Shown: positions 15,164 to 42,955 of the stretch, in pieces
Layout of the letters: each line of letters opens with the position of its first letter
Position numbering within the stretch: position 1 is the stretch's first letter
Position numbers and translations under genes: made by a program
Assembly: GCA_016647705.1 (NCBI GenBank)
Contig: CM028339.1
Span: 23,847,803-23,911,802, forward strand
Reading direction: 5' to 3'
Length of the DNA: 64,000 bases
Origin: Eucommia ulmoides
Taxonomy: Eukaryota > Streptophyta > Magnoliopsida > Garryales > Eucommiaceae
The notes under the pieces: generated by a model
Seen by the model: only the letters and a program-made list of their open reading frames with translations
The model's database searches: none
Told to the model about the DNA's origin: nothing

Positions 15164-15778
15164 TGATGTTGATGAATTTGGCCCAGGTCCGCCTACTTCG
15201 AAAGCCTAAGGGATCTATTGAAAAAGGCTTGGGTTGTGTCCATTTTGGGCCCAGGCCCATCACTGTTAGTGGGCCAAACCTTTGGGAGAAAATAAACGCC
15301 TTTGGAGAAACCCAAAACTCATCAACTATAAGGGTCAGGTCGGCGGGTACAACTGAAGTGAAGTGCAGTGCTAATTGCCAAGGGATGAGTCACCACTAAA
15401 TTAGCGAAGAATATTCAATTAGCGTGGAGGACAGAAAAATAGCAGAGCAATCATTGCGCCATAACTGATTTGGTGACAAGACACTCTATTCTCTCTTTAG
15501 AATCGGCTATGGACTGTATAAATACATAGGTAAGACATGGGCTTAGGTATGTTATGAAATGCGACCTTATGCAAGATCACACAGCGTTTAACAAATACAT
15601 TCGGCTTTATTTTTCTCTACCGTGTACTTAATCTCACGCCGAAGGTCCTTCGCTAGGATCACTCCCCCCTCTTCTATTATTAAGGACTTGTGCAGGAACC
15701 TCCTCTAGAGGAAGTAGGATGGATCCAGTCAAGGGCGAACTTATAAATTCATTGTGTTATAATTTTTCGATAACATCA
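15164..15778 (+). repeat. 5' LTR of the Tat element (615 bp)
   Basis: It begins TGATGTTGATGAATTTGGCC and ends GATAACATCA. A TATA box (TATAAATA) lies at 15517-15524. The sequence aligns along its length with 33607-34184, for example GGGATGAGTCACCAC(T/C)AAATTAG. The primer-binding site follows at 15779. Confidence 0.85.
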
Positions 15779-18700
15779 GTTAGCGCCGTCTGTGAGAACC
15801 ACAGACAAAGCTGTGTTTCCTCTCCGCTGTGCTTCGACAATTCTCCATTCATGCTCGCTGGCTCTAAGAGTGCGGCCTTAAGAGAAAATCCTCTACCAAT
15901 ACAAGAGTTGCAGTACGATTCTTTGCCTCTCCAGGAAGAGTCGATGAACCCTCATGTGCTCGACCTCACGCTGTTGTACGGGGAAGCTCGCCTCGAACAA
16001 ATCAAGAATCAGTTTATTGAGATAAATTATTAGATTGTGTAGCTAGTGAATACGCTCTAAGCACCTCCTCGGCCACATCCAGAGGGAGCTCGTCCTCTTT
16101 TCTGAGAGGGCTCTCGCCAAGGAGTGCAGTTGCATTTTATCGGTAGGCTTTCGTTGTAGCGAAACGTGTACACGACTTCCATGATGAGCACTTGGGATGT
16201 TATATCCATTTGGGAATGGGGTCGTGCCACTAGAGGTCTCTATCTCCTTCATGCGAAGGCTCCTATGCTGAGCCACGACTATGCTAGGCCTAAAAGCGGT
16301 ACCTCTTCAAGGGACATATGCTAGCTAAGGAGCATCGTTTGGACAAAATGGAGGTCATGCTGTAGGCCTAGCTGAGGACACAGGAAATGAGGCACCTCAC
16401 TCGATTCATCCTCTTTTCACTAGGGATATCTTGGACGAACCGATGCCTCATTGGTTCCTCTACCCCTCCAACCAAATGCTTCCCTATGATGGAACGAAAG
16501 ATCCCATCGACTCTGTAGCTATCTTAAAAATGATCTTGGACCTTCAAGGAGCCTCTAACGTACTGCGTTGCAAATCCGTTCCCGTTACCTTGTAGTGTAG
16601 AGCTTAGGAATGATATCTCACACTCCCTCCTCGCTCTATCTCGTGTTTCCCCAACTTTGAGAGGGAGTTCCTGATATGTTTCAAGTGTAGCTGTAAGAAG
16701 GCTAAAACCTCCACTTACATCCTCACCATCAAGCAGGGCTAGGGAAAGTCGCTTAATCAATTTTCAACAGTTTCGACAAGGAGGTGAGGGATGTTGACCG
16801 TCTAGATAATAGTGTGGCCCTCATAACGCTTATGAGTGAATTAAGGCAGAGAAAGTTCCACTTTTCTCGCCAAAACCCTAGCACGAAACCTGGACGATGC
16901 CATATCCCGATGGTACACTTTAGTTAGGTGGACTTTTTGATAGAGGACAAGGTTAGTACGGAAGGACCCAGGAAGCAGGAAGATGTCCGAGAAGAGAGAC
17001 AACCCCCTCCGAAGAGGGCAAGAAGGTCAAAGCAGAAGAAAGACTGAGGGACAACAAGTGGGCCTTAACTTGGAGGCCCAAACAATTTACACCCTTGAGG
17101 CTGTTGTGGCAACAATCCTGTGAGATCGATGGGAAGGAGCCTGGCCTTAGGCAGCCTAGCTTGGTAATGGCTAAAGGGATAAAAAAAACATAAATAAATA
17201 CTATGAGTTCCACAAGGTCCACAATCACAAAACAAATGAATGATACCAGCTAAAGGAAGAAGTAAAAAATCTAATACGACATGGCTATCTCCAGTGCTAC
17301 GTCCATGAAGATAACCGTGAAGGGGACAGAAGACGAGAGCCACCACTGAAGCAGGACAACGAGAGAAAGAAGCCTCGCGACCTCAAAATGATTAAAGAAG
17401 AAATCTAGACAATCCATGGGGGGTTCGCCTTAGGTGGACTCTCTTGCGACATAAAAAAAAGCATATCTGGGCCGCCAAGAGAAGGGCAGAAAGTAGTAAC
17501 AGAGAGGTCCTAGCGACTATGGTGCCCGACACTGTCATCACCTTCTTCGACGAGGATCTCAAAGGCATAAATTTCCCCTACGATGATGCCTTAGTAATCA
17601 CGACTGTAATATCTAATTACTAGGTTCGAAGGATAATGGTGGACAGTAGAAGCTTCGCTGGCATCATCTTCAATGGGTTCTTTGACAAGATGAAAGTCGA
17701 CCCTGTAAGCTCCTGCTGGTGACCTCTCAAATTGTAGGCTTGGTAGGGGGGGGGGGGGGGGGGGGCACGATCCATCCTCTAGGGTGGGTAGAACTTTTGG
17801 TGTCCCTACAATGGGAACCTAGTAGAACCACCGTGTTACTTCAGTTCCTAGTTGTAAATTGCCTATCGACGTACAACGCCGTACTTGGTCAACCCACCAT
17901 GAGTTCCTCAAGTCCATATGCTCCATGTATCACCTAGCTATGAAGTTATCTATGGAAAAAGGGATCGATGTGATGAGAGGAGACCAGATAGTGGCCAGAG
18001 AATGCTTCAGGGCAATGGTCAGAGCTGATCCTCTATCGACGGTGGAATATCAATCATAGGAAGTGTTTGAGTTTGCACTCTTGTAGGACGAGTTGGGGCA
18101 CCTACGTGCAGAGGATCCTAGGGGGGAGAGAGCATGCCCAATGTCCGATGAGAATCTAGTCTTTATCTAAATCCACCCTTAGGACAGTGCCAAAATAGTG
18201 AAGATTGAGATCGAGATGGCTCCAAAGGTACAACAAGCCCTGTAAGAACTCTTCAAGAAGAATAGAGACATCTTTGTGTGGTCATACTCTGACTTTCTGG
18301 GGATCGATAATGGGGTGTCCATGTATCGGTTGTTCATTAATCCCATTCACCCACTTATTCGCTTGAAGAGAAGAAAGTTCCACCTAGAAAAACAGGTTAT
18401 CATCGTATAGGAGACTCAAAAGTTGATAGATACTGAGGTGATCATGAAGATTACCTTCTAGGACTAGCTAGCCAATGTGGTTGTGGCCAAGAAATTGGGA
18501 GAAAAATAGCGAATGTGTGTCGACTATAAGGACCTCAACAAAGCCTATCCCAAAGACTTCTTTTATCTCTCAAGGATCAACGTGGTGATCGATGCCACTG
18601 TCGAGAATGAACTTTTAAGTTTCCTAGATGCATTATCCAGATAAACCAAAGCCTGATGTAGCCTCTTGACTGGCAAAAAACGTCCTTTATAACGGATAAG

Positions 18701-18815
18701 GCTACTTGCTGTTGTAAGGTGATGCGGTTTGGACTAGAGAATGCCGATGCGACCTATCAAAGATGCGTGAACAAGATGTTTAAATCCAAAATTGGGAACT
18801 CCATGGAAGTATATG
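15779..18815 (+). pseudogene. Tat gag, protease and first part of reverse transcriptase (fossil)
   Basis: After the primer site come worn gag pieces: near 16460-16590 residues like LPYDGTKDPIDSVAIL and LQGASNVLRCKS match the Tat gag pattern of a target-capsid region. The protease region lies around 17500-18060, with QIVGLVGG, FLVVNCLSTYNAVLGQPT and a 20-base G run at 17746-17765. Reverse transcriptase starts near 18180 (DIFVWSYSDFLGID, KRRKFHLEKQV, MCVDYKDLNKAYPKD, VMRFGLENADATYQR, GNSMEVYV) and is interrupted at 18815 by the nested element. It is broken throughout. Confidence 0.8.
17746..17765. repeat. 20-base G homopolymer
   Basis: An uninterrupted run of 20 G on the plus strand lies inside the Tat protease region. 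Confidence 0.95.
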
Positions 18816-19613
18816 TGATGAGGGTATTTTTGGGCTTCTCCGAGTCAGCACTTGGGACCCAGCCACGTGTCCGTCGTTGTAGTGACAGGGACACATTCCG
18901 AAATCCACAAACGCCACACTGGAGCATACTCCGACCACGGCTTCTCCTTGGAATCTCATTTGTAGCCAATGGGGAGCGAGGAGCCCTGCTGGGACGTGTC
19001 GCTTTGAGCTTTGTGCCGTGCCCTGGGTAGTCAGTTTCAGGGACTCAGCCGTTCACCTCGACCGGCTTCCCTTTTCACCTTGTTTCTTCTCCAGGACTCC
19101 ACGGATCTCCGCTCTCCTCCACCATCTTACCGCCGCAGGCCTGACAAAGGCCCACGGGCTTTGCCAAATGGGCCCAAAAGCCCAAGCCCAATGATTATCT
19201 CCTAAACGCCTCAGATTATTGGCTAAACACAGGGTTTCGACTACTTAACCGTGTTTAGATTCGACTAATCATCTCCAACGCCTATATATATCGGGGGCTA
19301 TGTAAGCCCGAGGTACGCTTTAATGACTTACATTACGTGCGAGTTCATTTGTTTCCTTACTATATTCTGTACCTTTTCTCTATGAGCACTGATTTCCACG
19401 CCGAAGGGGCTTCACCGGGATAAACCCCGGTCTGAGCCTTCTGCAGGTACACTCCCTGAGGAGTAGGACTCTGGACACAGCAGGTCAGTCCTCCTAGGAC
19501 CCAACACAGCTCGCTCGAGGGCTTTTCAATTGACGACTCCACCTCCGCAAGATGACCCACTTGTCATCCGACTGGACCATACTCGAGGTCTGTACCAGTT
19601 TTATGCACCAACA
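18816..19613 (+). repeat. 5' LTR of the non-autonomous Tat-type element
   Basis: This 798-bp LTR has a TATA box at about 19283-19292 (CCTATATATATCGGGGG) and the downstream motif GAGCACTGATT...CGCCG that is shared with other Tat-type LTRs in the window. Confidence 0.93.
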
Positions 19614-19637
19614 GTTTGGGCGCCGTCTGTGGGAACC
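19614..19637 (+). other. Primer-binding site of the Tat-type element
   Basis: The sequence GGGCGCCGTCTGTGGGAACC begins within five bases of the LTR end. Nearly the same site follows the Tat 5' LTR (15779) and the minus-strand element's 5' LTR (46484). Confidence 0.8.
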
Positions 19638-20359
19638 GAGCAAAAAGCCTTCCCCTGATCATTTCTCTCTGCTCAGCTGAGCTTGAGTAATCACAAGGTC
19701 CAGTTAGATAGACACAAAACAGAAGAACGAGAAGACATGTCGAACAATCCAAGCGCATACCCCCCCCAGCTCCCACCAACGTGGATAACTGTCCCCCCAT
19801 GGTCAAGCAAGACCGTCAACTCTGCCACCTGGGGCTGCGGGACAGACCTCAAGAGCTATGGAGGCATCTTGGGTTGATCTCCTTGAACGCCAAATGCAAG
19901 AGTTCAAGTCGAATGTACAACTCTTTCTTGCGTGCCTACTACTAACCCCCCGTCCAGGGGGAACCGTCTCTCTAGACTACAGGGCCTGAGGAGTGACCCC
20001 AAGATCACGATGCTTGTGTGGAATCTTCAAATGGGCTTGTGCCCGAGAACCGCCCTCCACCTTGCCATACTGAGGCTACCGGACTAGAGAGCCTCCCCGA
20101 CCACGTCAAGACCCCGTTCTCCATAAAAACATGGTGCCAGGGACTGACCAGGGCTACCCTTGGGCTCGGCTTCCCAGCCACACAGTAAGATCCGACCTGA
20201 GGGCCTATCGTGGGCAGGGCCAAGCTCCTACCCGCTACCCTCTCACCACCACGGCGTTTGAGCAGTGGCCAACTGTGAGCATGCAACTCAAAGGTGAAGA
20301 CGAGTAGCCCTCCATCCTACTAAAGATAGAGACGAGCGCCTTCCAGCCTGTCTCCCGCA

Positions 20360-20740
20360 ACGGCGCTCCGACCCCCTGAGTCATGGATGATTCTCCAGAT
20401 CCGCATCCCGGCTCTCGGCGTTGCGAGTGATTCTCCACGGTTACATTCCGACCCCCTGAGTCACATCCTGGCTCCGGCGTCACGAGTAATTCTCCACGGC
20501 TGCATTCCGACCCCCTGGGCCGTATCCCGACTCTCGGCGTTGTGAGTGATTCTCCACGGTTACATTCTGACCCCCTGAGTCGTATCCCGACTCTCGGCGT
20601 CGCGAATGATTCTCCTCAGTGGTACTCCGACCTCCTGAGTCGCGGATAATTCTCCAAATCAACATCGTGACTCTCAGTGTCATGAGTAACTCTCCACAAG
20701 TCTCATCCCGACGCTCAGCGTCGAGGGTGACAACCAGACC
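20360..20740 (+). repeat. Tandem array, about 70-bp unit, GC-rich
   Basis: Five or so diverged copies share CCGACCCCCTGAGTC, a short spacer, CCCGACTCTCGGCGT and GTGAGTGATTCTCCACGG. CTCTCGGCGT recurs in most units, and the last copies are more worn. Short open frames on both strands follow the repeat and look non-functional. Confidence 0.85.
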
Positions 20741-21784
20741 CTCTCTGGAAGTCAATAGTCCGTACCCGGGGACAGACTTAGGTCATCCACCAAGGGCGGG
20801 GCATTGATTGGGTCTGAGGGCCTGCAGCCAAGTACCTCTCCCTACCAGTCGACTATAAGTCCGACATTTTAAAAGGGAAGGTGCTCCTGCATGGACTAAA
20901 TGGAGATAACCTGAAAGGGTTCTTGAATGAGCCTGACTACGGAGAACTCTCCGATGACCGGCCACAAGGGTCCAACCACCGTGTTGCGTTCCTATGGACC
21001 GAGAGGATCAGCTACCCTGGGAAACCCTACTCCTAAGTTCACGACACGATTTCCTTGCAATCAGCTCGTGTCCCGAACTGGGGGGGCTAGTGGACTATGG
21101 TCCTGGACAGAGACGAGAAGTTCTTGAAGTTTTTGTAAACTTTTCAAAATTTTACAACTCTAAAAACTATGCTAGGCAAAGAATGACTTGGCGAAAACGT
21201 TGAGAGAAAGGAGTAAACTCTGAAGTACCCTGGTAATGCCGCTTAAAAGCTTACACACTCGCGCGCAGAAAAATAGGAATAAGCAAAAAAGAGTCTACAA
21301 AATCCTAAGTCCTGAAAAGGCAATGGTTCAAGCTTAGTCCTCTCTACCCTCGTTGTGAGGGGCGTTCGTGCGAGGGGAAGTGGCGTCTAGCTCGCCCTCC
21401 TCAGCCCCCTCGTCAACACTCTCCTCCTCGGCATCCCTCTGCTCGGCGCCCGTGTGCGTGGCACCGTTTGGGACATCGGCCTTGGTGTCCCATATCTAGA
21501 ACCATCAAGTTTGACGGGTACCATCCTGTCACGCTACTGCGAGCCGGCATGGTCCGGGTAGCGACGGACACCGCCCTACCGTGCTACTCCTAGCCGGTAG
21601 GGTCCAGTGACGACCTTATCCAAGAACTTCGTCCAGGAGTATCGTCCAGAGATTTCACCACATCTCCCCGAGCCGGTGTCGTCTAATCTAGCTCCTCCTG
21701 TTCTGTCGTGCTGTCTTAGGCCGGTTGGGCGTAGATGAGAGTCTATCCCAAATTCTCCCCTAAAAAAAAAAAAATCATAAGTAA

Positions 21785-21785
21785 A

Positions 21786-21825
<40 letters not shown>

Positions 21826-21865
21826 AAATTAAAAAATTAAAAAATTAAAAAATTAAAAAATTAGC
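21785..21865. repeat. (AT)n and (AAAATTA)n simple repeats
   Basis: An A-run is followed by an AT dinucleotide tract (about 21788-21822) and several copies of AAAATTA up to 21862, directly before the GC-rich hairpin array. Confidence 0.9.
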
Positions 21866-21890
21866 TCTTACTTTGGGGGCGCAGTCCCCA

Positions 21891-22060
21891 GGGCACTGGT
21901 GTTACCAGTGCCCACTGTGGGCGCTGGTGACACCAGCGCCCAAGATGGGCGTTGCTGGTTAGACCAGCGCCCAGTTGGGCGCTGGGGACAGCTCAGTGCC
22001 CACTTCTGTGGGCGCTGGTCCTAGCGCCCAGCATAAGTGGGTGCTGTCCCCAGCATCCAC
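21891..22060. repeat. Array of six GC-rich hairpin repeats, about 28-bp spacing
   Basis: Successive inverted repeats start at about 21891, 21919, 21947, 21977, 22010 and 22039. The second is perfect: GGGCGCTGGTG, one base, CACCAGCGCCC. The first has 10-bp perfect arms (GGGCACTGGT and ACCAGTGCCC) with a 3-base loop. The others keep GGGCGCTG- and -AGCGCCC-like arms with a few changes. Each unit is self-complementary, so any transcript across it would fold into a row of stems. Confidence 0.9.
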
Positions 22061-22219
22061 CTGGGAGCTGGTCAGCCCGGCTGGGCCGTCGCCCAGTGCA
22101 CGGCGGCAGTCGGCGAGCTCCTGGCCACGCACCGTGAGCCCGCCACCCTGTGGTTCACTTTTAGTTTTTCCGCACTGAACGCCGTCCAGGCTCAGGGCTT
22201 GTTCACGGTGAACGTGTGT

Positions 22220-22700
22220 CGCCCTGAAATTCGAAAAAATTCGGGGCCGCCCTGACGTGCTACCTGACCTCGGACCCCGGCGATATGGGAGCGTATTTCA
22301 ATTTAGTTCCTCTAAAAAAGTTCAACTATGGAATATTGTCGTCGTGAAATCTAAAATATTCGGGGTCGCCCTATCGTGCTACCTGACCCCGGACCCCGGC
22401 GATATGGGAGCGTATTTCAAATTAGCTCCTCTAAAAAAGTTAAACTCTTGGAAAATTATCACTGTGAAATCGAAAAAATTTGGGGTCGCCCTGCCGTGCT
22501 ACCTGACCCTGGACCTCGGCCGTAGGGGAGCGTATTGCAAATTAACTCATCTAAAAAATTTCAACTCTTGAAAAATTGCCGTACTGAAAATCAAAGAAAT
22601 TCGGGACCGCCCTGCCGTGCTACCTGACCCCGGACCCCGACCATGTGGAGGCCTATTTCGAATAAGCTCCTCAAGAAAAAACTAACTCTTGAAAAAGTGT
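22220..22700 (+). repeat. Tandem array, about 120-bp unit, four copies
   Basis: The anchor GTGCTACCTGACC recurs at about 22257, 22376, 22496 and 22617 (spacing 119-121 bp). Each unit also holds GGGAGCGTATT, an AAAAAGTT-like run and ATTCGGG(G/A)(T/C)CGCCCTG. The array lies just upstream of the polypurine tract, a usual place for minisatellites in Tat/Ogre 3' regions. Confidence 0.9.
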
Positions 22701-22810
22701 CGATCAGAGGTGTTTCTCGCAATCCAAAGTCTACAGGATGCCCGTTTCAGCCAGGAATTGATATCCCTGACCGTCTCGCTTCCCTCGTCGCACAGGGCTA
22801 GGGGGGCTAC

Positions 22811-23608
22811 TGATGAGGGTATTTTTGGGCTTCTCCGAGTCAGCACTTGGGACCCAGCCACGTGTCCGTCGTTGTAGTCACAGGGACGCATTCCGAAATC
22901 CACAAACACCACACTGGAGCATACGCCGACCACGGCTCCTCCCTGGAATCTCATTTGCAGCCAATGGGGAGCGAGGAGCCCTGCTGGGACGTGTCGCTTT
23001 GAGCTCTGCGCCGTGCCCTGGATAGTCAGTTTCAGGGACTCAGCCGTTCACCTTGACCGGCTTCCCTTTTCACCTTGTTTCTTCTCCAGGACTCCACGGA
23101 TCTCCGCTCTCCTCCACCATCTTACCGCTACAGGTCTGACAAAGGCCCGCGGGCTTCGCCAAATGGGCCCAAAAGCCCAAGCCCAACGATTATCTCCTAA
23201 ACGCCTCAGATTATTGGCTAAACACAGGGTTTCGATTACTTAACCGTGTTTAGACTCGACTAATCATTTCCAACGCCTATATATATCGGGGGCTATGTAA
23301 GCCCGAGGTACGCTTTAATGACTTACATTACGTGCGAGTTCATTTGTTTCCTTACTATATTCTGTACCTTTTCTCTATGAGCACTGATTACCACGCCGGA
23401 GGGGCTTCACCGGGATAAACTCCGGTCTGAGCCTTCTACAGGTACACTCCATGAGGAGTAGGACTCTGGACACAACAGGTTAGTCCTCCCAGGACCCAGT
23501 ACAGCTCGCTCGAGGACTTTTTAATCGACGACTCCACCTCAGCAAGAGGACCCACCTGTCATCCGACTGGATCATACTCGAGGTGTGTACCAGTTTTATG
23601 CACCAACA
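22811..23608 (+). repeat. 3' LTR of the non-autonomous Tat-type element
   Basis: This 798-bp LTR is near-identical to 18816-19613 (about 95%). ATATG follows, completing the target-site duplication. Confidence 0.93.
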
Positions 23609-26293
23609 ATATGATATGCTAGTCAAAATCCTGCTGGCTGAGAAACACATCGCCGATCTCCGTAGGTGCGTCGTCATTCCCCAGGCGTATAAAATGAAGC
23701 TCAACCCTTCCAAGTGCGTCTTCGAGGTAGCCTCCGGGAAATTTATGGGCTTTATGGTCTCATATAGGGGATAGACACCAACCCATATCAGATCTGAGTT
23801 ATCATCGAAATGTCCTCCCTAAGGACCAAGAGGGAAGTCTAGAGCCTAGCGGGAATGGTGGCAGCCCTAAGCCTCTTCATCTCCTAGTCAAGTGATAGAT
23901 GTTTCCCCTTCTTTAAGCTATTGGGAGAAAACAAAACCTACGAATGGACAAAGGATTGTAAGCTCTCATTCCAAGAGTTGAATCTCTATCTTGAAACTGC
24001 CTCGTTAATCTCTATCTTGCAACCGCCCCATTGTTAACAACTCTAACGCTCGGGGAAGAATTATTCTTGTACCTCATTGTATCTCCTATAGCCCTAAGCA
24101 ATGTTCTGATCTGAGAGGTAGAGAGTGGCCACAACCCAATTTTTTACTCCAAACACGTCTTAACACCCACCACAGTTCGGTATTCAAGAAGGGAAAAATT
24201 AACACTGGCCTTTCTGGTGGCTTCAAGGAAAATAAGATAATATTTCTACACTCCCCTTGTGGCTGTGCTGACTGCGCATCCTGTTCTCCAAATAATCCAT
24301 GCCCCAGATAGATTTGATAGGCTGATCAAATGGTCTATTGAGCTCAGCAAGTTCCACATCGACTATCTCTCGCCCACGACCGTCAAGGGTCACATGGCGG
24401 ATTTTATCGCTAAGTTCACATTTATCGAATAATCTCCACCAGAGATGACGATCTTACCCAGCCCAGAGGAGACTACCTAAGTCTGGTCCAATGGAGGGTA
24501 CTGACCAAATGCCATCGTTATAGGCAAAACTCCAAATGAAGACCATTCCTAGGCTAAGTGCAGGTTGTTCATCGATGGATCTTCCAACTAGAAAGGCAAC
24601 GGGACAAGATCAGTTCTTTCCACCCCCATGGGAGAACAGATCGAGTACTCACTTAAACTTGATTTCAAGGGCACCAATAATGATGCTGAATATAAGGCGC
24701 CAATCGCAGGACTGAGATTAGCTAAGCTCATGGGAACACCAGACTTCCCAATATTTTACGATTCCTAATAAGAGGCCAACTAAGTGAAATAGGAGTACTA
24801 AGCTAAGGATACCACCATATATAGCAAGGTATCTAGATAAGGTAAGAGACCGCTGGAAGGATTGGCCTTCACTTAGCATCACTCAAGTTCCCCCGAGATG
24901 AACACCGCCACGCCAACGCATTGGCAAACCCAGCCTCATCCATGTTGTCGAAAGGTCCTTGGCATGTTCTAATAGAAATCCTGCACGCACTTGGCATTGA
25001 CGAGACAAAACAAGTCAATTTGGTCAACGACTCATAAATCTCCATGTGTTGGAAGGATCCACAACGACAATATATCGAGCATGGCATCCTCTCGAGTGAC
25101 AAGGTTGAAACCAGGAGAGTCCGGTATAGGGCCTCTAAGTATTGTCAGACAAATGGAGTCCTATACCTAAGATTATTTTAAAGTTTGAATTCTTGATGTC
25201 TGTGGCCCAAAGAAGCCTAATATGTCCTGGCGGAAGTCCATAAAGGCATGTGCGGGAATCACACCAGGTGGAGGTCATTTGCATCAAAGATAATCTACAA
25301 TGGGTGTCATTATCTAACTCTAGCACATGACACTAGGCTCTATGTACAAGTGTGCAATAATTTTCGAAGATTCACCTTGCATCCACAGCTACCCCCAACA
25401 TAGATGACACCTATAAGTAGCCCGTCGCCTTTCACCTAGTGAAGAATCAACATCGTCGGTCCCCTCCCTATAATGTATGGGCCAATGCAAGTCTTTTCTA
25501 GTAGAGATCGATTATTTCACCAAATGGGTAGAGGCAGGACCCTTGGATACCATGACCAAAGAGAAAATTCGGAACTTCACATGGAAGAACCTTGTGTGCC
25601 GCTTTGGCATTCCAAGGGCTATTATCACCGACAATGGGAAGCAGTTAGACAATGACCTATTCAAAGAATTCTACTCTAGATTGGGAATTCAAAATCACTT
25701 CTCATTTCTTTGTCACCCCCATGCAAATGGCTAGGTGGATGTAACCAATTTCTCCATTCTCCAAACAATCAAAACACGACTCGATAGATCCAAAGGGGTA
25801 TGGATGGAAGACTTCCTAGGTTTCTTTTGGGCCTACCATAATACCGCTCGGACCTTAACGAGAGAAACACCTTGTGCCCTCACCTTCAAATCAGAGTCAA
25901 TTATTCCAATAGAGTTGCAAGTCTCGAGTCCCTGAGTAGTGGGCTATATAGAGCGAAACAATAAGACTAAACTAAGGCTCAACTTGAATCTCCTCGAAGA
26001 ACAAAGGGAACAGTCTCAAGTGCGAAGGGTAGCGTAACAACAATAGGTGGCCTACTACCACGACAAAAAAGCCTCCCCCCCTTTCGGTGAGAATTTTAAG
26101 TGGGCGACTAATTCTTACAAAGGTCATCATCGCCACCAAGGAGCTGGGGATGGGAAAGTTAGGACCCTTGTGGGAAGGTCCAATAGGGGTGACTTGGATC
26201 GTGAGACCAGGAACCTATAGCCTCGAAACAATAGAAAGGAGGAAGCTACCCAACATATGGAATGCGAAAAACCTGAAAAAACACTTCGTATGA
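23609..26293 (+). pseudogene. Tat pol continued: end of RT, two RNase H domains, integrase (fossil)
   Basis: After the nested element, reverse transcriptase resumes with AEKHIADLRRC and KLNPSKCVFEV. RNase H follows at about 24060-24430 (LIRE-like start, YSRREKLTLAFLVASRK, VLTAHPVLQIIH, HMADFIAKF). A second RNase H at about 24565-24780 has LFIDGSSN, GTRSVLSTPMGE, YSLKLDFKGTNNDAEYKA and IAGLRLAKL; this extra domain is typical of the Tat/Ogre branch. Integrase spans about 25160-26293, with the core EIDYFTKWVEAGPL, GIPRAIITDNGKQ, FWAYHNTARTLTRETP and the end GKLGPLWEGPIGV and WNAKNLKKHFV. It is broken in many places. Confidence 0.85.
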
Positions 26294-27124
26294 AGTTTTT
26301 GTAAAATCCAAGAAAATTAATGAAAAAAATTCTGATGCTTTATGCCTCTCTCAATTCTATAGTACGCGCCTGAATACAGAATTGACCAACATATTTCTCT
26401 GGTACGAAGCTCCTGACAGTGAGGTTAAGCACCTACGTTATCGGTTCAATGGTTACGGTGAGATACCTACGTCTTTGCTTGCTCCATAGAATATACCTCG
26501 GTAGTCAAATCCTCCATCTGAGATCCCAGTTCCACAACTTTGGAACCCACAAAGCTCACTCTGTCTTCATCCTATCCAGTTGGTGACAAAAAATGTCCTC
26601 CACCTTGGAATGATATTACTGACAATAGACAAGCTCCGTCAAGTTGTTGGAGAGTAAGACGTGAGACCTCCCCTGCTGACTTACAAGTTCTTTCCCCCCA
26701 TGAGTCTGCACACGTTTCTGATCGTGGGGGAGGACGACACCCTACTGAAGAGACAAGGCCATGAAGGGCTCCCTAAGACAGAATCCTCAGAAGTCATGAG
26801 AGAGCCGTACACCTTGAACCATGGCATCCAAGTTTTGGTGCTCCTAAAGGGCCCTGCTTGAGGACTGCGTGGATTACACAAGAACCTCCTTTCGAAGCCT
26901 CTTCTAGGGGCAGTTTTGTGTGCTTGAGGATTAATAATAGGGGTAGGAAACACTTTCCGTGGCACATTCCTCCGTTCTTCGGAACCCGATGAACTTCGTT
27001 AAACTAGTCCGCTGGATAGCGTAGGGGTAAAAGGATGAATCAAAGGCTTTTTGGTTAGAAGTCTTACATCGAAAGGAACATATATTGCCCCAATCATCTT
27101 GGACTTGTCAAACAACGCTTCAAT
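26294..27124 (+). other. Tat 3' region between integrase and the antisense frame
   Basis: No protein motif was recognised over these 830 bp. Long 3' regions without pol genes are usual in Tat elements. Confidence 0.5.
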
Positions 27125-27709
27125 TTATGGTCTACCATCTCCCACTCCGCTCGAAAGACAATCATCTACTAGTACGTTCACAATGGCAAGTCCCCATTCG
27201 ATAGATGAATGCAATGGCAATAGACGATCTACTTTCTCATGTCCCTCACTAGAGCAACCCAATGATAGGGCAACGAACAAACTCTGAAAGGTCCGTGCAA
27301 AAGCCTCCAGGGACACAGCCCTTTTTAGCTCTTGATGATCATAATCATAAGGATGGGGAAAATGCTTGTGATCCCCTGGAAGGTACACTTTTCCATGTGG
27401 TACTTTAGGGAAATATTCTTCTGTCGCTCCAAACTCTTGTTGGACAGAAAGGAAGACGGCCTTCTGGTCCCAACCTTTGTTAGTAAAGTCCAACTCCTCC
27501 ACTAGACGAGAAATGTTACCATGAAGAAGATGAAAGAAGTAACCATTACACTTATTTTTCTCTTGAAGAATGTACTGACTGCGTACCTCTCTAACTTCGA
27601 GCGATAGCCCAAACGACTTGTTCAGGGCCACAATCCTTATCATGATACGAACAATATTAGGGGCATAGTAAAACAATGGTAGATTATAGAAACCTAGAAT
27701 TTCGCGCAC
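27125..27709 (-). pseudogene. Antisense reading frame of the Tat element (gypsy-type transposon domain-like)
   Basis: A 194-residue frame runs opposite to gag-pol, 3' of integrase. Its start (REILGFYNLPLFYYAPNIVR followed by a hydrophobic segment and SLEVREVRSQYIL) follows the pattern of the 'putative gypsy type transposon' domain (Pfam PF04195 family as I remember it): an REILDFY-like opening, a conserved Asn/Arg-Ile segment, then an aromatic stretch where this copy has GYFFHLLHG. Tat/Retand elements are known to carry such an antisense frame. Further antisense, coiled-coil-like pieces lie at 28189-28366 (QKLELERELAAVNKE) and at 32868-33071 (ELRKQVEAHAREMEIQ). The role of the product is unknown. 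This belongs to a broken element. Confidence 0.6.
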
Positions 27710-28366
27710 GACACGGGAAAGTGGAAATTGAAGGTCGTGCCTGGTTAAAGGCGAACTAACATTGGGCTGGATAAAGGGCTACTGGGGAATAGAGGAGTGG
27801 ATACACGCGTCAAATCAAAGGCGACCAACTCATCAAAGAGACCACAAAATAGTAAAAGGAAAAATATTTTTTTCATTAAGAAATAAAGAAAGGGGAGGTA
27901 CACAAAAATAAAAAAATAAAAAAAATTGAGTTAGTTCTGCATCTTCTCCTTCCTCATCCCTCTGCTTCTTCCTTCTCCAGAATCAGCGGCCTCGAGACCT
28001 ATTCCCTTCTCTCATAGCCTAGGAATTCAAAGAACTTCTCTCGGTAGAGGATGAGCTAGCCTTCCGGGAAGGCCATGGAGCATCACTGGAACAAGAGGAA
28101 CGTCAGCCCATGTTGTGACGGGCCTGCATATCATGTCTTCAAGCTTGGTGATTCGATCATTCAAGCTGTCAGTGTTGGTTCCGGAGCCTCATCTCTTATA
28201 CTCTCCGCCACTGCGGCAAAGTGCCTCCATACGAAGCACTCGTTCCATTATTTCCATTTGATCATCCAAATCATGTAGTCTCGCCTGAAAACAGACCTTC
28301 TCCTCAAAGCTCTCCTTATTGACGGCGGCCAACTCCCGTTCCAGCTCCAATTTCTGGATGGACATG

Positions 28367-30875
28367 TGATCGCTCAAATTCAATACCTAAGAGTAAAATA
28401 TTGTAGTATAGCGACTTAAGTAAGGTGTCGAACTGCAGGGATTAGATTGTAATTATTAATTTTTATCCTATTTTTCGGTTGAATTTAATAAGATTGGTTT
28501 CAGATTTTTAAAATAAAAATAAAAAAATAATTAAATTAAAATACTAAATGATAAATAACTGAGTTAAGGGCATGCATTCGTCTTTTGATTATCCTAATGT
28601 GTTTTAATTCTTTATTTATTTTGATTATGTGCATAATGAAATAATTTAAATGCAAAAAAATTACAATGAAAGTTTGATTATTTAATCGGCATGAACTATA
28701 TTCGGAATTTGGTTCCTAATTTATGGTGAACCAATCCCTAAGTATAATTTATCTTATCAAATACATCGATTAATCGACCATTTAATCGGTGTGGATTATT
28801 TTCGGATTCGATTTTTACTAATTTACGCTGAATCAATCTCTAAGTATAACTCATTCTATTAATCCATATCGATTCTAATAAATACGGATTATATAACAGT
28901 TAGATCTAAATCACAGGTATTAGATCTAACCGGTAAGCATCAATAATTTTTTCTATCATTTAAAAATGATAAAAACAATAATTAATTTCATAAATAATGT
29001 AAGAACATCAAACCACTGTTATACAATCTTATACATGGATATAATAAATCAAGAAATAAAATTGTATTAAAAAATCTTAAAATAAATACAACCTAACTTG
29101 GTTGAAGCCTTAACCGTTCATGGCGGTTTCTTCTTACTAAAATATTCAAAAAAGAACCAATGGAAGAAACTACCTCCAACAATTTCGGCAGAACAAAAAA
29201 AAATAAAAAATGAAGAAGAAAAAAGTCTAAAACTAAGGATGAACAAAAAAATGATAATAATCACTTCTCCGAAATTCCTTTTTTTTTTTTTTTTGAATCC
29301 TCCCCCCCTTCCCCCACCGAATCTCCTTTTTAATTGCCATTAATGGCCCTAATGGCCCTTGCCACTTGTGTGCAACGGCTGCCACCATTGCCAACGACAA
29401 TCAATTGTAAAGAATGATAATCAATTCTGACCAAAACAATTAATAGAAACTAAATCCTCGCACGCCCACTAATCTTCCAACCTTTCATTTTATTTTATTT
29501 TAATTCCCATTATCTACCTTTCAATGACTCATTGAATGGCCAATGTAGTGGTTCATTACAGACCCAGCCTAACAGGTAGGGTCTGTTGGCGCTGGTCACG
29601 GGCCCGGGTCGCAGATCGGGCTGGTTTCTCCATTTTTGTCCCCTTTTAGCTATTTTTTATCACTATTTTTTCTGCATTTTTTTTTTTATTTCCAAGTTTA
29701 TTCCAATAAAAAATAATAATTTTTATTATTACTAATTGATGAGTGTAAAAATGGTCACTCCAACGCAACCAATTAAAGACCACCACGTGCCTACGACTCT
29801 TCATCAAGATCAATCCATCTGAGGATTAAGTGTGAAGATTGTGCCGAACAGGGGCACACCTTAGCCCATGGCAGCCACTCCGAAGACAGCCAATAACACT
29901 CTCCAGGAAGAGCAAGCAAGCCGTCGTTGAGATGGGGGAACCTTTCTCATCTCAGCTCTCTTCACAATAGCATTGTCCATCTCGAAAATTAACCCCACTA
30001 GCTTTTCAGCAGAAGCCCCCCCTTCCCATTTCCAGCTATCCGAGAAGTGCAGGGCAAGAAGATCCACATGACTCTCCCTTCCCGTCTCCGATTATCCAGG
30101 AAGAGAAGGGATCAAATTCCTCATCTCAGCTACAGCAAGAAAGTGTTCTTTTCGGATCATGGGCTAGATTACTTCTCCAAACTACAAATATATTTTGCCA
30201 TGGGCCTCAACAACAGTACCAAAAAGCCTATGACTGACGTAAAACTATTCCTTGTCACCCTCTCATTGGCCACACGCCGAGATGGGACACTGATATAACA
30301 TTGAGGGGATATTAATCCATGCTTAACCCTTTAAGCTAATCCATTCCATGCCTATATATAAGAGGGCATACCAATGCCCAAAGGCACACACAAAATAAAT
30401 ACTTACTCTTCTAGGTAGCACTTTTATAAATCTTCCCCCTGAGCACTGATTCTCACACCGGAGGGGACACGTCGGGGCCATCCCGGCAAGTCATTTGTGC
30501 AGGTGTCGAAGTGCTGCTCTTCTCGGTTCTACCTCGTCTCAGCTCGGATCCACTTCTCCTTGGGTCATAAAGCATTCCAACTCACATCTTCTCGATCAGA
30601 AGACTCTCCATGGATTAAAAGACTCTCGGGTGGCTCCCCTGCTCGAGAGCCATTCCAGATCACTCTACCTCTGCCCACCTCGAGTCAGACAAACTGATCC
30701 CGAACTTCTCCATCTCCATTCCAGCAAAAAAGCCTATCATCTCCACCAACAATTGATTATATCATACCGTTGAAGTTATCCAAAATCTGAAATCAACACT
30801 AATTAAAATTTGATAGAACGACTAACAAAATTATAGATTCAGGGTAGAAATTTAATACAAAATTGAGAACGATCA
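28367..30875 (-). mobile_element. Athila-type solo LTR (about 1.5 kb) split by a Tat-type solo LTR
   Basis: The ends are TGATCG and CGATCA, flanked by a perfect ACATG duplication (28362-28366 and 30876-30880). Near the left end, read on the minus strand, is the U5-like motif AATCCCTGCAGTTCGACACC. This recalls the 'TCCCTGTGGATACGA' motif near the end of Athila-type LTRs. No internal region remains, so it is a solo LTR. It lies within the antisense frame of the Tat element. A second LTR (29740-30751) is inserted in it. Confidence 0.8.
29740..30751 (+). mobile_element. Tat-type solo LTR (1012 bp), nested
   Basis: It runs from TGAGTGTAAAAATGG to CCACCAACA, flanked by ATTGA (29735-29739 and 30752-30756). 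A TATA box lies at about 30353 (CCTATATATAAGAGGG), followed by GAGCACTGATTCTCACACCGG, the motif shared by Tat-type LTRs here. A minus-strand relative lies at 54689-57107 and begins TGATGAGTATAAAAATAG. The short reading frames inside (for example 29861-30067 and 30495-30773) are not genes. Confidence 0.85.
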
Positions 30876-30880
30876 ACATG

Positions 30881-31547
30881 TGGAGGAATTGGTCGTCCAT
30901 GACGATGACTGCCGATCAGAGGCTACTCATATGGGCAACCTCTTTGGCACTGGTAGGCCTCATCTACCCTGGCCCATTGAAGGGTTAAAAGGCAGTGGGT
31001 TACCTGAACAATGTGCAAACCAACTCTAGACATTCTTTGAAGCAGAAAAGAAAAGATACACAAGGCAACGAAACAAAGGATGGAGTTAATCTAGCACACC
31101 CCCAATATTTATAGAATGAAGGGTGCTGAATGAGATACTTCCCCAAGTATCCTACTGGCTGAATTGAAATGAGGATGCATGCAAGCAGACTGACGTGACT
31201 AACAAGCTTAGGAAATCACGTAGACCATTATTTGGATACTCTTGGAAAGTTATGCAATTACCCTGGATGATACATTAGTCTTAAAAAATTATGGACCTAC
31301 CCCCTACAACCTACTTTGGTGGCATTGTGCTCCCAAAAGTTAGGCGTTCTTCCCAAAGAACGCCTAGCTTGTCCAATCAATTAATTAAGGAGAGAAGATG
31401 TCTCATTTACTTGTTTTAACAAAGCAAAAGAGGCTCTCCATTCCCACCCAACTCGCCACTTGATAGGCAAGGTCACGAATCGACGTCTCCCTCAAGGAAC
31501 CGAGTTGCAAAGGAGCATGAGGACCATTGGCAGAGTGGGCTGCCCCC
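30881..31547 (-). pseudogene. Tat 3' region between two solo LTRs
   Basis: Tat sequence continues between the two Athila-type insertions. Only short frames are readable, on the antisense strand. No domain was recognised in this piece. Confidence 0.45.
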
Positions 31548-32843
31548 TGGTAACGGAATATTACATCGCTACTTTCACTGCAAGTGTACGGGTCAAGTTT
31601 TATAGAATAGTGAATGAGAAGAGTTGTCGTATCCACAGGGATTGGATTAAATTGTTCTTAAGTATCGCGATTATCATAACCGAACTTTATTTAGGCGATA
31701 AAAATTGAGTTTTTATTTTTGTAAATAATATACTAAATTAACAATTAATTAAACTATAATACTGAATATATTATCTAAGGATTAATTTCATTTACTTATA
31801 CGTGTTTGATCCAATCTAGTTTACATTAACGATATTCAAATCTATCCAACAATCTAGGTATCGAAAACTCATTCACTACCTCTCCCGAGTGTAAAGTGAA
31901 TGAATATGCGACTCCGCGTCAATGCCGAAGTCCTCCTCAAGCATCTATATGACACTTGGTCGCATGACTCTTGCCCCAATCTCACTGATTGCACACTTTC
32001 TAATACCCTCTTGGGTAATTAAATCATCGCGTTGTGTTTAAACCCTAGTCTGAATTTAAGGTTACCCTATCTCGAGTGTCAAATCCTGTATTCTCAAATA
32101 AACCACAATATAATAACAATCATATTATAGAGGTAAAAGAACGGTATACACAATCGAATAAAGATAAACAACCGTTAACGAAACACAAATTCACTTAAAC
32201 AACGTATATTAGTAAACTACATCAATCTCATAGATAATCAGTGTTTAGCTTTTGACCATAATCATATATTCAACAATAATCCATATATAAATGATCAAAC
32301 AACCAAAAACGAGTTAAGAATAAAGAGAGAAATAAGGGAGAATAGCCGTTATCTGAAGGTGGTGTCTGTAAAAACCGCTCCAATCTTGTTTCTGTTTCTC
32401 CAATTGTGTTCATCTTCTTTGGTTGGTTGAGAGCTTTTTCAGAACACTAAAAAACACTCCCAAAATATTATTTTAAAAAATGGGAGCGAACCAGGAACAA
32501 AAAAAAACAAAAACAAAATATCTAAAACAATTGGCCATTGATCGCTGCAGTGGTGGGTTTCACCGCTGTAGTGATGGGCATTTTGGTAGGCTTTCTGCCC
32601 TTTCACCGCTGTAGAGGTGAGCAATTAGAAACATTTGAACTCTTTGTTGTTTCACCGCTGCAGCGGTGAAACTATTGCTTTAACACTTCATCGTTTTTCT
32701 ACCGATTTTCTCGTTTTTTTTACTGTTTTCGCTCCTAACCCCTGCTTTTAACAAAAATAAATAAAATAAAATTAAAATATTACAAGAATACTCGAAAACT
32801 ACCAAATTCGATTTGGAAATAGATATATAAATTTCACCTATCA
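31548..32843 (-). mobile_element. Athila-type solo LTR (1296 bp)
   Basis: It is flanked by a perfect CCCCC duplication (31543-31547 and 32844-32848). On the minus strand it runs from TGATAGGTGAAATTT to GTTACCA. Near its 3' end it has AATCCCTGTGGATACGACAA and GACCCGTACACTTGCAGTGA, the U5 signature of Athila-type LTRs. Its U3 holds four palindrome-like motifs at 32541-32555, 32561-32576, 32604-32619 and 32653-32668; the last, CACCGCTGCAGCGGTG, is a perfect palindrome. It shares the whole layout with 54794-56160. Confidence 0.85.
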
Positions 32844-33606
32844 CCCCCGCTTTCTGAGGTCTTACCCCTAATGGCATAGGGGCCCTCTGGAGGACATAAT
32901 GGATCTTGTGTAACTCCTCTTGAACCAATTGAAGTTCCGCACAATCTTTATCCCACTTAAGGTGAGACTCGCTGGCACTGGAGGACGTAAGCCTTGAAAC
33001 TCCTCTTGCATAAGGTGAACTTGGATCTCCATCTCTCTTGCATGGGCCTCGACCTGCTTTCTCAACTCCATATTCTTATCACGATAAAATCACAAAAAGC
33101 CACCTCATGTATAAGCTGCATATAATGAGACATGCAAGCTCGTTTACTACGTGTGGGTCAATTCTCCACAAAGACTCCATGTCGCGGGGCAAGAAAATTG
33201 AACAACAAAAATCCAGGGCATTCGAGGAATTTCCTCAGATAGTGGAGTCAAACGTTAGTCGAGTGTTCCTCACCTCTTAGGCATGATGTATATATGACGG
33301 AGGAACTGCCAGAGATAGCGAATCTGATGGGGTCCCACTCTCGTAACGGCTGGTCCTCCTACTTCTAGCCAGCGCAAACGGCATGGAGGACCTAAATATC
33401 TCATCTTTAGTTTTTCCATTCAATTGTTTTCAGAAGAGAAATGAATCTGAGAAATCTATAAATTCACTTTTGAAAAAAGAGAAAAGTCCTTGAAAAATTC
33501 TCCAAGGAAGGACAGTACGAAGGTAAAGACAGGCGTCACCATGAGAAATCTTGCGCTAGAAGACTCCCAGGATAGGACCACTTGACCTAGGAGTTTGGGG
33601 GGCTAC
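32844..33606 (-). pseudogene. Tat 3' region: antisense coiled-coil-like piece and polypurine tract
   Basis: An antisense frame at 32868-33071 begins MELRKQVEAHAREMEIQVHL, rich in charged heptad-like residues. Near 33595-33606 the plus strand has TTTGGGGGGCTAC, the polypurine tract directly before the 3' LTR. Confidence 0.55.
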
Positions 33607-34184
33607 TAATGGTAGTGAATTTGGTCTTGGGTTGCCCACTCCAAAAGTCCAGGGGACCTAATGGAAAAGGCCCAGATCGTGCCCATCCTGAGCCCAAGAC
33701 CGTCACTGTCAGTGGGCCAAACCCCCGAGGAAAGAGCAACAACTTCGGAGAAACTTGGGACCCATCCATGACACAGGTAGGGTTCGTGGGTACAATTGAA
33801 GCACGACGCTAATTGCTAAGGGATGAGTCACCACCAAATTAGTGGAGAATATTCGTTCGGCATGGAGGACGTACAAATAGCAGAGCAATTATTACGCCAT
33901 AATCGATTTGGTGAAGAGGCAGTCCATTCTCTCTTCAGAACCATCCAGGGATTGTATAAATACCCGGGTAAGACATGGGCTTAGTCATGTTGTGAAATGC
34001 GACCTCACGCAAGATTACGCAGCGTTTAGCAAATACATTTAGCTTTTTATTTTTGCCGGGATCAACCCCCCTTTCCCCCCAGTGTTAAGGACTTGTGAAG
34101 GAAGCCCCTCTAGAGGAAGCAGGACGGAGGGCAGTCAAGAGCAAATTTATAAATTCACTACGTTACCATTTTTGGGAAACATCA
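33607..34184 (+). repeat. 3' LTR of the Tat element (578 bp)
   Basis: It begins TAATGGTAGTGAATTTGG and ends GGAAACATCA. It aligns with 15164-15778 but with many changes, including a shorter region before the CCCCCAGTG stretch near 34075. An (ATT)n tract starts at the next base. Confidence 0.85.

Positions 34185-34259
<75 letters not shown>
34185..34259. repeat. (ATT)n microsatellite
   Basis: About 24 ATT triplets abut the Tat 3' LTR end. Long Tyr or Ile runs in the reading frames here come from this tract. Confidence 0.95.
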
Positions 34260-41159: not shown

Positions 41160-42955
41160 TTACGCTTCGTTATTGCTCTAAACTATTTTTGTCAGCTTTA
41201 CGAATGTTTACGTTGATGAGCCGATCTGAGTAGCTCGGTTTCGTTAACAAACTGATCTAAGTCACTTGGTTTACTCTCAACCAAGGTTAAAATCTAGACA
41301 TACGTTCAATTCTGTACTAACTCCATAGCAAGGAGTGATAAATTTAAGATTGGAAAAGAACAGTACCTTGAGAAGGATGTCGAGACTAAAGAGTAATTCT
41401 CATTGGAAGTATTTCCGTGGTGGTGAAGCCTACTTTATGTTGGAAGAAGGTGTAGTCATGTTGGATGAGAAATGTAAAGTACCTTTATTCTTTTTGGATT
41501 ATAATGATGTATCCACTGTTTATCAAAACTATTGGATTTCATCTGTCGCACACAAGTGCCGGAATTTTCAAGAATAATATTTTCCCAAAAAATAAACAAG
41601 TCAAAATTTGATGACTTGTCACCAATCATTTCTTGGATGAACTAAACAACTTGGTTCTCTTGGAGGATCGATCTGAGAAGCTTGGTACGATCTTTGAGAC
41701 GTGATGTTTTGTCGCCAAGTGCGCATTGGATGACTTGGTCTGGGCAGTTTGGTTAAACTTGACGAACTAATTTCAGTGGCTCGGTAAATGAATGAACTGA
41801 GTAAGGCAATTCAGTTTGATTCTAACAAACTAATCTAGGTACCACTGTCTATAAATTGATTGAGCCAGGCTATTCAATTTGAGCTTGATGAATTGATCTA
41901 GGCTGTTCTATTTGCGAATGAACTGAGTTGTTGCAAATAGCTCAGTGTCCTTGCCAAGTCAATCTGAGTAGCTTGGCATAAGCTTCGAGATTTGGTGATT
42001 TTTCATTAAGTGTTTACTAAGTGGATTGGTCAAGGTAGCTTAGTTGGTGCTTCGAGCAAGTCTTGATGCTTCGGTTAATTTGGTGAACTAATCAGTTGAT
42101 ATTCGATACTCAGTTCGATTGGTGAATTAGGTAGTCTAGTTGGTCGATGAGCTGATCTTGGCAACTTGAACTTATCTACGTCATTCAATTTGCAAATGAA
42201 CTGAGCTAGTCAGTTTAGTTGATCTTCACGAACTAATCTACGCAGTTTGGTTTATGAATAAACTAAGTGAGACAATTCACGAACTGAGCTAGGCAGTTGA
42301 CGAACTAAGCTAGCAGTTGTCGAACCGAGGCAACCAGTTAGTTGACGACCTGAGCTAGGTAGTTCTCGAACTGAGTTGGGTAGTCAGTTGATAAACTAAG
42401 CTAGTCAGTTGTCAAATTGAGATAACCAATTGACGAACTAAACTAGGTAGTCAGTTGAAGAATTGAGTTAGGTAGTCAATTGACAAATTGAGCTAGGAAG
42501 TCAGTTGACGAAATGAGCTAAGCAGTTGTTGAACTGAGCTAGGCAATTTAGAAAGAACTAAATATGACAGTTTTGTTCGCATGTGAACTGAGCTAGGCAG
42601 TTATGTCGGATTTGAGCTGATCTTGGCAGCCTAGGAAGAATTGAACTAGGCAATTCTGTTCGTACGTGAACTGGGTTAGGTAGTTACGTTGGATTTGAGC
42701 TGATCTTCGCAGCTCAGGAAGAACTGAACTGGCAGTTCTATTCGTACGTGAACTGGGCTAGGCAGTTATGTCGAATTTGAGCTGATCTTGGCAGCTCAGG
42801 AAGAACTGAACTGGGCAGTTCTGTTCGCATGTGAACTAGGCTAGGTAGTTACATTTGATTTGAGTTAATCTTGGCAACTCAGGAAGAACTGAACTAAGCA
42901 GTTCTGTTTGCACGTAAATAGGGCTAGGCAGTTACACTTGATTTTTTCTTTACAT
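41160..42955 (-). repeat. Long degenerate minisatellite of the minus-strand element
   Basis: The core GAACTGAGCTAGGCAGTT recurs dozens of times in three styles. About 41160-42240 has loosely spaced, worn copies. About 42250-42540 has roughly 26-bp units like CAGTTGACGAACTGAGCTAGG. About 42540-42955 has five units of 82-83 bp (anchor GAGCTGATCTTGGCAGCTC at about 42614, 42697, 42779 and 42862). Tandem arrays in the 3' region are known from Tat/Ogre elements. Confidence 0.85.

Follow-up and report, generated by a model that had tools for sequence, protein, structure and literature searches.

Template switching as the probable source of a palindromic, hypervariable 3' repeat zone in a protein-less LTR retrotransposon family of Eucommia ulmoides

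Non-autonomous LTR elements that carry gag only, or lack gag altogether, are known under the names TR-GAG and LARD. Elements of the Tat lineage (Ogre, Retand) contain tandem arrays between the coding part and the 3' LTR that vary from copy to copy (PMC7004042; PMC11963269). The origin and function of these 3' repeats have been called unknown (PMC11963269), and abnormal strand transfer has been proposed for them (PMC7004042). The main text of PMC11963269 mentions neither hairpins nor inversion in this region of Tat/Retand elements, palindromes appearing in its references alone, and PMC7004042 makes no mention of palindromes or hairpins there. Sireviruses, which belong to Ty1/copia, carry palindromic motifs of 10-20 bp, 12 of 13 with a CGG-CCG core; 79 copies fall in the pol-3' LTR linker and 127 in the 3' LTR (PMC2829016). 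An excess of small RNAs on these palindromes has been cited from Bousios 2016 (PMC10760457). Template switching, for its part, creates perfect stems and inverts loops (PMC8794818) and, when it takes place between short inverted arms, homogenizes the arms and inverts the spacers (PMC8604942). Tandem repeats in Tat/Retand 3' regions and palindromic repeated motifs in Sireviruses were already known; we found no description, in the open-licence literature, of an LTR element with clustered palindromes whose loops are inverted.

The array that we describe here, from the genome of Eucommia ulmoides, resembles the Tat-lineage 3' region in its position, its variation between copies and the presence of further arrays in the same region (units of 60 bp and 120 bp). 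In contrast to that region, its units are palindromes, are replaced by different palindromes and have inverted loops. With the Sirevirus motifs, part of which lie between pol and the 3' LTR, it shares short, repeated, GC-rich palindromes, but the units here span ~20-30 bp, lie outside the LTR and in many cases have a GGGCGCTGG-type arm. In position and core word the zone departs from the Sirevirus motifs, being outside the LTR and having a common unit, GGGCGCTGGTGACACCAGCGCCC, without CGG...CCG. Perfect stems, inverted loops or spacers and homogenized arms are likewise seen in template-switch hairpins of microRNA, rRNA or protein genes (PMC8794818; PMC8604942), whereas here many such patterns are gathered in the array of one dispersed element. 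The carrier family is comparable to TR-GAG and LARD in having LTRs, a primer-binding site (PBS) and a polypurine tract with no pol found, and in comprising gag-bearing and gag-less forms, a likeness drawn from organization.

We analyzed a window of 64 kb, the whole stretch of DNA under study, in which the array lies within the non-coding 3' portion of an LTR element of 4.8 kb (18816-23608; Table 1). The zone sits between conserved left and right flanks, ~735 bp ahead of the polypurine tract. The TG...CA LTRs, 5-bp target-site duplication (TSD), PBS and polypurine tract identify the carrier as an LTR retrotransposon. If a rate of 1.3e-8 is assumed, the divergence of the two LTRs (95.2% identical) corresponds to ~1.9 My. 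The preliminary description of this locus had placed the array in a retroelement without protein genes, and none was recognized: the longest stop-to-stop frame of the 3.2-kb interior has 126 aa and Pfam matched none of the three frames tested. Nor did Transposase_28, whose antisense frame is a Tat/Retand feature, match either of two antisense frames.

Table 1. Positions in the window of the carrier element's features and of the inverted repeats in its array.
Feature	Position	Strand	Details
Target-site duplication ATATG	18811..18815 (5' copy), 23609-23613 (3' copy)	+	
5' LTR (TG...CA), 798 bp	18816..19613	+	
Primer-binding-site region	19614..19637	+	Junction shared with full-length relatives
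60-bp tandem repeat, 4.1 copies	20401..20643	+	Also in relatives, including gag-type
(AT)n and AAAATTAA tracts	21789..21863	+	Ahead of array
Upstream-hairpin remnant	21870..21890	+	Other copies keep the left half plus one earlier hairpin
Hairpin A	21891..21913	+	Perfect 10-bp arms, loop 3 nt
Hairpin B	21918..21942	+	Perfect 12-bp arms, loop 1 nt (A); 11-bp arms if begun at 21919
Hairpin C	21947..21972	+	Imperfect, bulge present
Perfect palindrome, 10-bp arms	21964..21985	+	Bridges end of C and start of D
Hairpin D	21977..22001	+	8 bp including one G.T, loop 9 nt
Hairpin E	22009..22030	+	Perfect 8-bp arms; from 22010: 7 bp, loop 6 nt
Hairpin G	22037..22060	+	G.T pairs; from 22039: 8 bp including one G.T, loop 4 nt
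120-bp tandem repeat, 4 copies	22217..22702	+	Also in relatives, including gag-type
Polypurine tract	22795..22809	+	Ahead of 3' LTR
3' LTR, 798 bp	22811..23608	+	

Six GC-rich inverted repeats follow one another in 21891-22060, more than chance predicts. Four perfect ones (arm of at least 8 bp, loop of at most 9 nt) compare with a mean of 0.077 and a maximum of 2 in 1000 dinucleotide shuffles, and they make up four of the six such repeats above 50% GC within the window. Three of the six units are perfect over at least 8 bp, and the fourth perfect repeat bridges the third and fourth units. On recheck, all six starts given in the preliminary description (21891, 21919, 21947, 21977, 22010 and 22039) were correct, and so were the 10-bp perfect arms of one unit and the 11-bp perfect arms around a single base of another, which extend to 12 bp. 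The claim that the unit is at once tandem and palindromic also holds, with a tandem call by TRF (21891-22019, period 28, 71% matches) alongside perfect repeats beyond shuffles. Two other statements needed adjustment. The spacing, described as an even ~28 bp, is so for the first two gaps but loose thereafter (start-to-start distances of 28, 28, 30, 33 and 29), and the AT and AAAATTAA tracts said to lie directly before the array are present, with (AT)17, but end 27 bp short of the first unit.

A stable fold, expected from such an array, was predicted for 21870-22070 (-144 kcal/mol, z -10.4; minus strand, z -8.85). The string of stem-loops envisaged for the transcript appears when pairing is limited to a span of 36 nt, which gives six hairpins at -122.1 kcal/mol, but the minimum-energy fold differs (-139.2 kcal/mol unrestricted, both values for a trimmed 194-nt zone). 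In the minimum-energy fold of 21870-22070, unit 1 pairs with unit 2 in a 19-bp stem and units 4-6 form a single nested structure, which rules out six independent hairpins as the ground state. The Rfam search returned no family at gathering score; the highest bit score was that of MIR898 (35.5, against 75 needed), and we attribute this and the other sub-threshold matches, microRNA or not, to composition. A hammerhead or retrozyme, suggested by CTGATGAG at the junction of polypurine tract and 3' LTR, was rejected, no hammerhead being among the Rfam matches up to E 5.

Copies were sought across the 391 contigs of the genome, 946,670,599 bases in total. From 397 candidates 40 were scored, the window copy being compared with 39 others; an LTR search started from 4545 first-look candidates and scored 40 of them. 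The larger counts, of 62 copies and 82 zones, omit L050, L052 and L053, which are at the same places as L043, L015 and L010. Other copies had been expected to carry the array, and a perfect palindrome (arm of at least 7 bp) lies at the corresponding place in 61 of the 62, L055 being the exception. Over the 62 copies, such perfect repeats cover 42% of the zone, compared with 8% in the right flank and 2% after the letters of the zones are shuffled. In all 40 copies of the smaller set the GC-rich zone folds below its shuffles (z -6.8 to -20.0, mean -11.0; 30 shuffles each), with 4-9 hairpins per zone (mean 6.7, versus 3.9 in shuffles). In 45 of 62 copies the 60 bp upstream of the zone have at most 20% GC. 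The interior measures 3.18-3.47 kb in six of eight further full elements, and 4.05 kb and 4.83 kb in the other two; a 5-bp TSD was found in six of the eight (that of L050 in simple AT sequence; L053 ambiguous, L057 not scored). Among nine dated elements L051, at 99.0% LTR identity, is the youngest. In L024 and L032 the LTR runs straight into the palindrome zone, as though the intervening interior had been deleted.

With at most one mismatch allowed, 246 PBS junctions are present in the genome. Of 20 sampled sites, seven (L103, L104, L106, L107, L110, L112 and L113) have the LTR end and the PBS in common with the window element but follow its leader for just 309-485 bp, and another, L100, departs from it after 38 bp. 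Pfam detected Retrotrans_gag in all three of these divergent relatives that were tested (L104, L107 and L112; E 4.9e-18, 9.7e-18 and 1.5e-18), and L103 has a frame of 521 aa. Four, examined apart from the 62-copy and 82-zone counts, were read through to the 3' LTR (L103/L118/L116, L104/L117, L112/L119 and L107/L120), which is 85.9-88.6% identical to that of the window element; by coordinates they measure 4.0-4.7 kb from PBS to 3' LTR. No pol-like frame was noticed in these four, the 5' parts being judged by their longest frame only. No pol-bearing partner with the same LTR was found among the sampled PBS sites. The arrays of the gag-type relatives lie 3' of the gag frame, so that tandem repeats occupy the interval between coding region and 3' LTR, as in Tat/Retand elements. 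In all four, GC-rich palindromes follow the left part and precede the 120-bp repeats, though weakly in L119, where most of the zone is gone (fold z, 50 shuffles: L117 -15.2, L118 -4.8, L119 -2.0, L120 -11.7). From this distribution we infer that the zone is probably older than the loss of gag in the branch of the window element.

It is the content of the zone that changes: the 40 copies have 29 distinct unit orders, subfamilies hold different palindromes at the same place, and units are gained, lost, reordered and replaced. The first hairpin, sought by pattern, is absent from 29 of the 62 copies. Among 604 inverted-repeat instances in 82 zones, seven loop types, with 11 instances, match the reverse complement of another, more frequent loop borne by an identical 5-bp inner stem; no type matches only the reverse or only the complement. 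These seven loops are just 3-5 nt long, a length at which chance is not negligible; letter-shuffled minor loops gave a mean of 2.16 types and a maximum of 6, and none of 500 runs reached seven. We also ran 16 tests on named loops and spacers (two overlapping on unit D) and found inverted forms in six: two instances for unit E, six for the first hairpin, one for unit C and four for three spacers together. The four inverted between-unit spacers are in L011, L032, L079 and L081. Reverse-only and complement-only forms were zero in all 16 tests. A seventh inverted form, for the loop of unit G (23 matches), was left uncounted because unit D itself holds that word, and the nine-base loop of unit D, the largest tested, had no exact inverted form. 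By eye, unit D seems to be inverted in L044 (GGGCACTGAGCTGTCCCCAGCGCCC), a case outside the counts that the exact pattern missed.

The clearest case of flipping is the first hairpin, AAG-CCAAGGGG-CTT (23 matches), which occurs as AAG-CCCCTTGG-CTT in L060, L062, L090, L092, L093 and L094, at six places on five chromosomes; in a relative, L056, the loop is unflipped. Because the inverted loop is common to dispersed copies, the form was present before those copies transposed, and the six could certainly share one inherited event. With one alignment of seven relatives to compare, either orientation of a loop may be the ancestral one, and other copies may share an inherited event in the same way. 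A perfect inverted duplication of 29 bp, its arms 9 nt apart, lies within the zone of L092, and one of these arms is missing from the aligned relative L093. A decayed form with 15-bp arms is found in L094, so L093 may have lost the duplication rather than L092 gained it. Arms also appear repaired. In subfamily II, most of the 22 copies carry an inner mismatch in their second hairpin; in three this mismatch is repaired in two ways, one in L051 and the other in L084 and L085. The hairpin pairs over 13 bp in L051 and L084, differently in each, and L085 combines the repaired inner part of L084 with two mismatches further out. L075, of the same subfamily, has a flipped 2-nt loop in this hairpin.

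Flipped loops, repaired arms and an inverted duplication are published footprints of template switching, here together in one array, and the inversion of loops between unchanged arms stands above the reverse-only and complement-only controls. We therefore consider it probable that the zone corresponds to the hypervariable 3' repeat region of Tat/Retand-like elements, in a palindromic form that template switching renews. Its carrier family is protein-less in the window element and, in relatives, gag-bearing and apparently pol-less. RT phylogeny and an additional RNase H domain are further marks of Tat/Retand elements. A polymerase would pause at a hairpin and switch template between short inverted arms, whereby hairpins would be created, perfected and flipped; ordinary strand transfer between similar arms would delete and duplicate units. 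The switch would fit replication of the element, during plus-strand synthesis, when both strands are present, or could have happened during chromosomal replication of a source copy, and the polymerase may be the reverse transcriptase of the element or the host replication machinery. If template switching renews it, the zone need not serve any function in order to persist. We advance more tentatively, and at somewhat less than even chances, the idea of a self-reinforcing hairpin generator, in which template switching at the short inverted repeats of a replicating retroelement keeps making, perfecting, flipping and replacing hairpins so that palindromic character would be inherited but no particular sequence. 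If template switching is indeed responsible, the many related copies form a natural archive of a retroelement's short template switches, with which the origin and persistence of hairpins in the absence of selection could be measured. It would also offer a mechanism for the unexplained turnover of repeats in Tat-type 3' regions, which are able to seed plant satellites, and a warning that in transposons an 'RNA structure' found to be conserved can result from mutation.

A palindromic character maintained across very different palindromes, gag-bearing relatives included, is also expected if the structure itself is selected, and this is one counter-point to template switching. The hairpins would then aid the RNA of the element, with source elements keeping palindromes of any sequence, and dimerization, packaging by the Gag of a relative or protection of the 3' end would be the uses under selection. 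The near-universal retention of a perfect repeat, the low fold z of every copy in the 40-copy set (none above -6.8) and the folding of different palindromes in the gag-type relatives all favor this reading. Compensated arm changes, by which the preliminary description proposed to recognize structure, did not emerge: double changes at paired positions numbered 14 versus 13.35 expected by independence, next to 215 single changes. The count covers 202 of 270 units in seven classes (33 right-flank artifacts and 35 unclassed units excluded) and omits pairs whose commonest letters do not pair; units had to match one arm word with at most three mismatches per arm, which favors that word, and five class-C units with a longer loop were out of register. 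Single changes left G.T 90 times and A.C 79 times, no clear preference for the RNA strand. Excluding those five class-C units, arms diverge from the majority letters (5.7% at non-CpG sites, 13.5% at CpG sites) like the flanks (5.4-5.8% and 10.3-11.1%; left flank in 35 and right flank in 39 of 40 copies). Shared variants even break pairing, with C.A at position 4 of unit G in 13 of 38 units and a G.G mismatch of unit F in 22 of 25, and most of the zone is gone from L119.

With no compensation and with arms diverging like flanks, these copies give no sign of selection on pairing; once inserted they decay without visible pairing constraint, as dead copies should. The uncompensated changes leave the proposed packaging signal, small-RNA source or protein-binding platform unsupported by the copies. 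The test reads mainly changes that postdate insertion and says little about selection in source elements, so the points against a selected structure weigh little on the source lineage; overall we regard such selection, and the uses proposed for it, as unlikely. More improbable again, by analogy with the palindrome clusters of maize Sireviruses, is a zone that would act as a source or target of small RNAs or silencing: strong local structure and the precedent cited in PMC10760457 suit it, against the Rfam search without a family at gathering score. Still less credible is a DNA-level platform for proteins or an array of regulatory boxes, as might be drawn from the palindromic repeated motifs of Sireviruses. 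The repeated GC-rich units do have dyad symmetry, and the Sirevirus motifs likewise lie between pol and the 3' LTR (PMC2829016), yet a binding array should keep its word, and here the arms diverge like flanks and other words occupy other subfamilies. Least probable of all, despite palindromic modules that vary in number, is an independent mobile hairpin that colonized the element in the manner of mitochondrial GC clusters, a reading rejected for the one unit searched genome-wide because all 34 exact matches of GGGCGCTGGTNNNACCAGCGCCC (17 sequence-checked, each adjoined by the right flank, and 17 assigned by coordinates to known loci or the window) lie in the array-bearing family and at the same place.

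The array-bearing element is itself a nested insertion in a larger, Retand-like element (15370-34188), whose LTR pieces at 15370-15782 and 33808-34188 are 81-83% identical. The insertion interrupts a reverse-transcriptase-like reading frame that matches RVT_1 weakly (18662-18815, E 0.0052, under the cut-off). A weak antisense match to Transposase_28 (27125-27778, E 0.0036) also falls below the Pfam cut-off; among Retand clusters, 97% are reported to have Transposase_28 in antisense (PMC11963269). At 15781, the LTR end of the surrounding element, the relatives' 18-nt PBS word has a match with two mismatches. Elsewhere in the window, a lone perfect 11-bp inverted repeat, GTTTCACCGCTGCAGCGGTGAAAC, lies outside the array-bearing element (32649-32672), and tandem arrays with periods of 21-25, 46 and 83-165 bp occupy 42261-42935.
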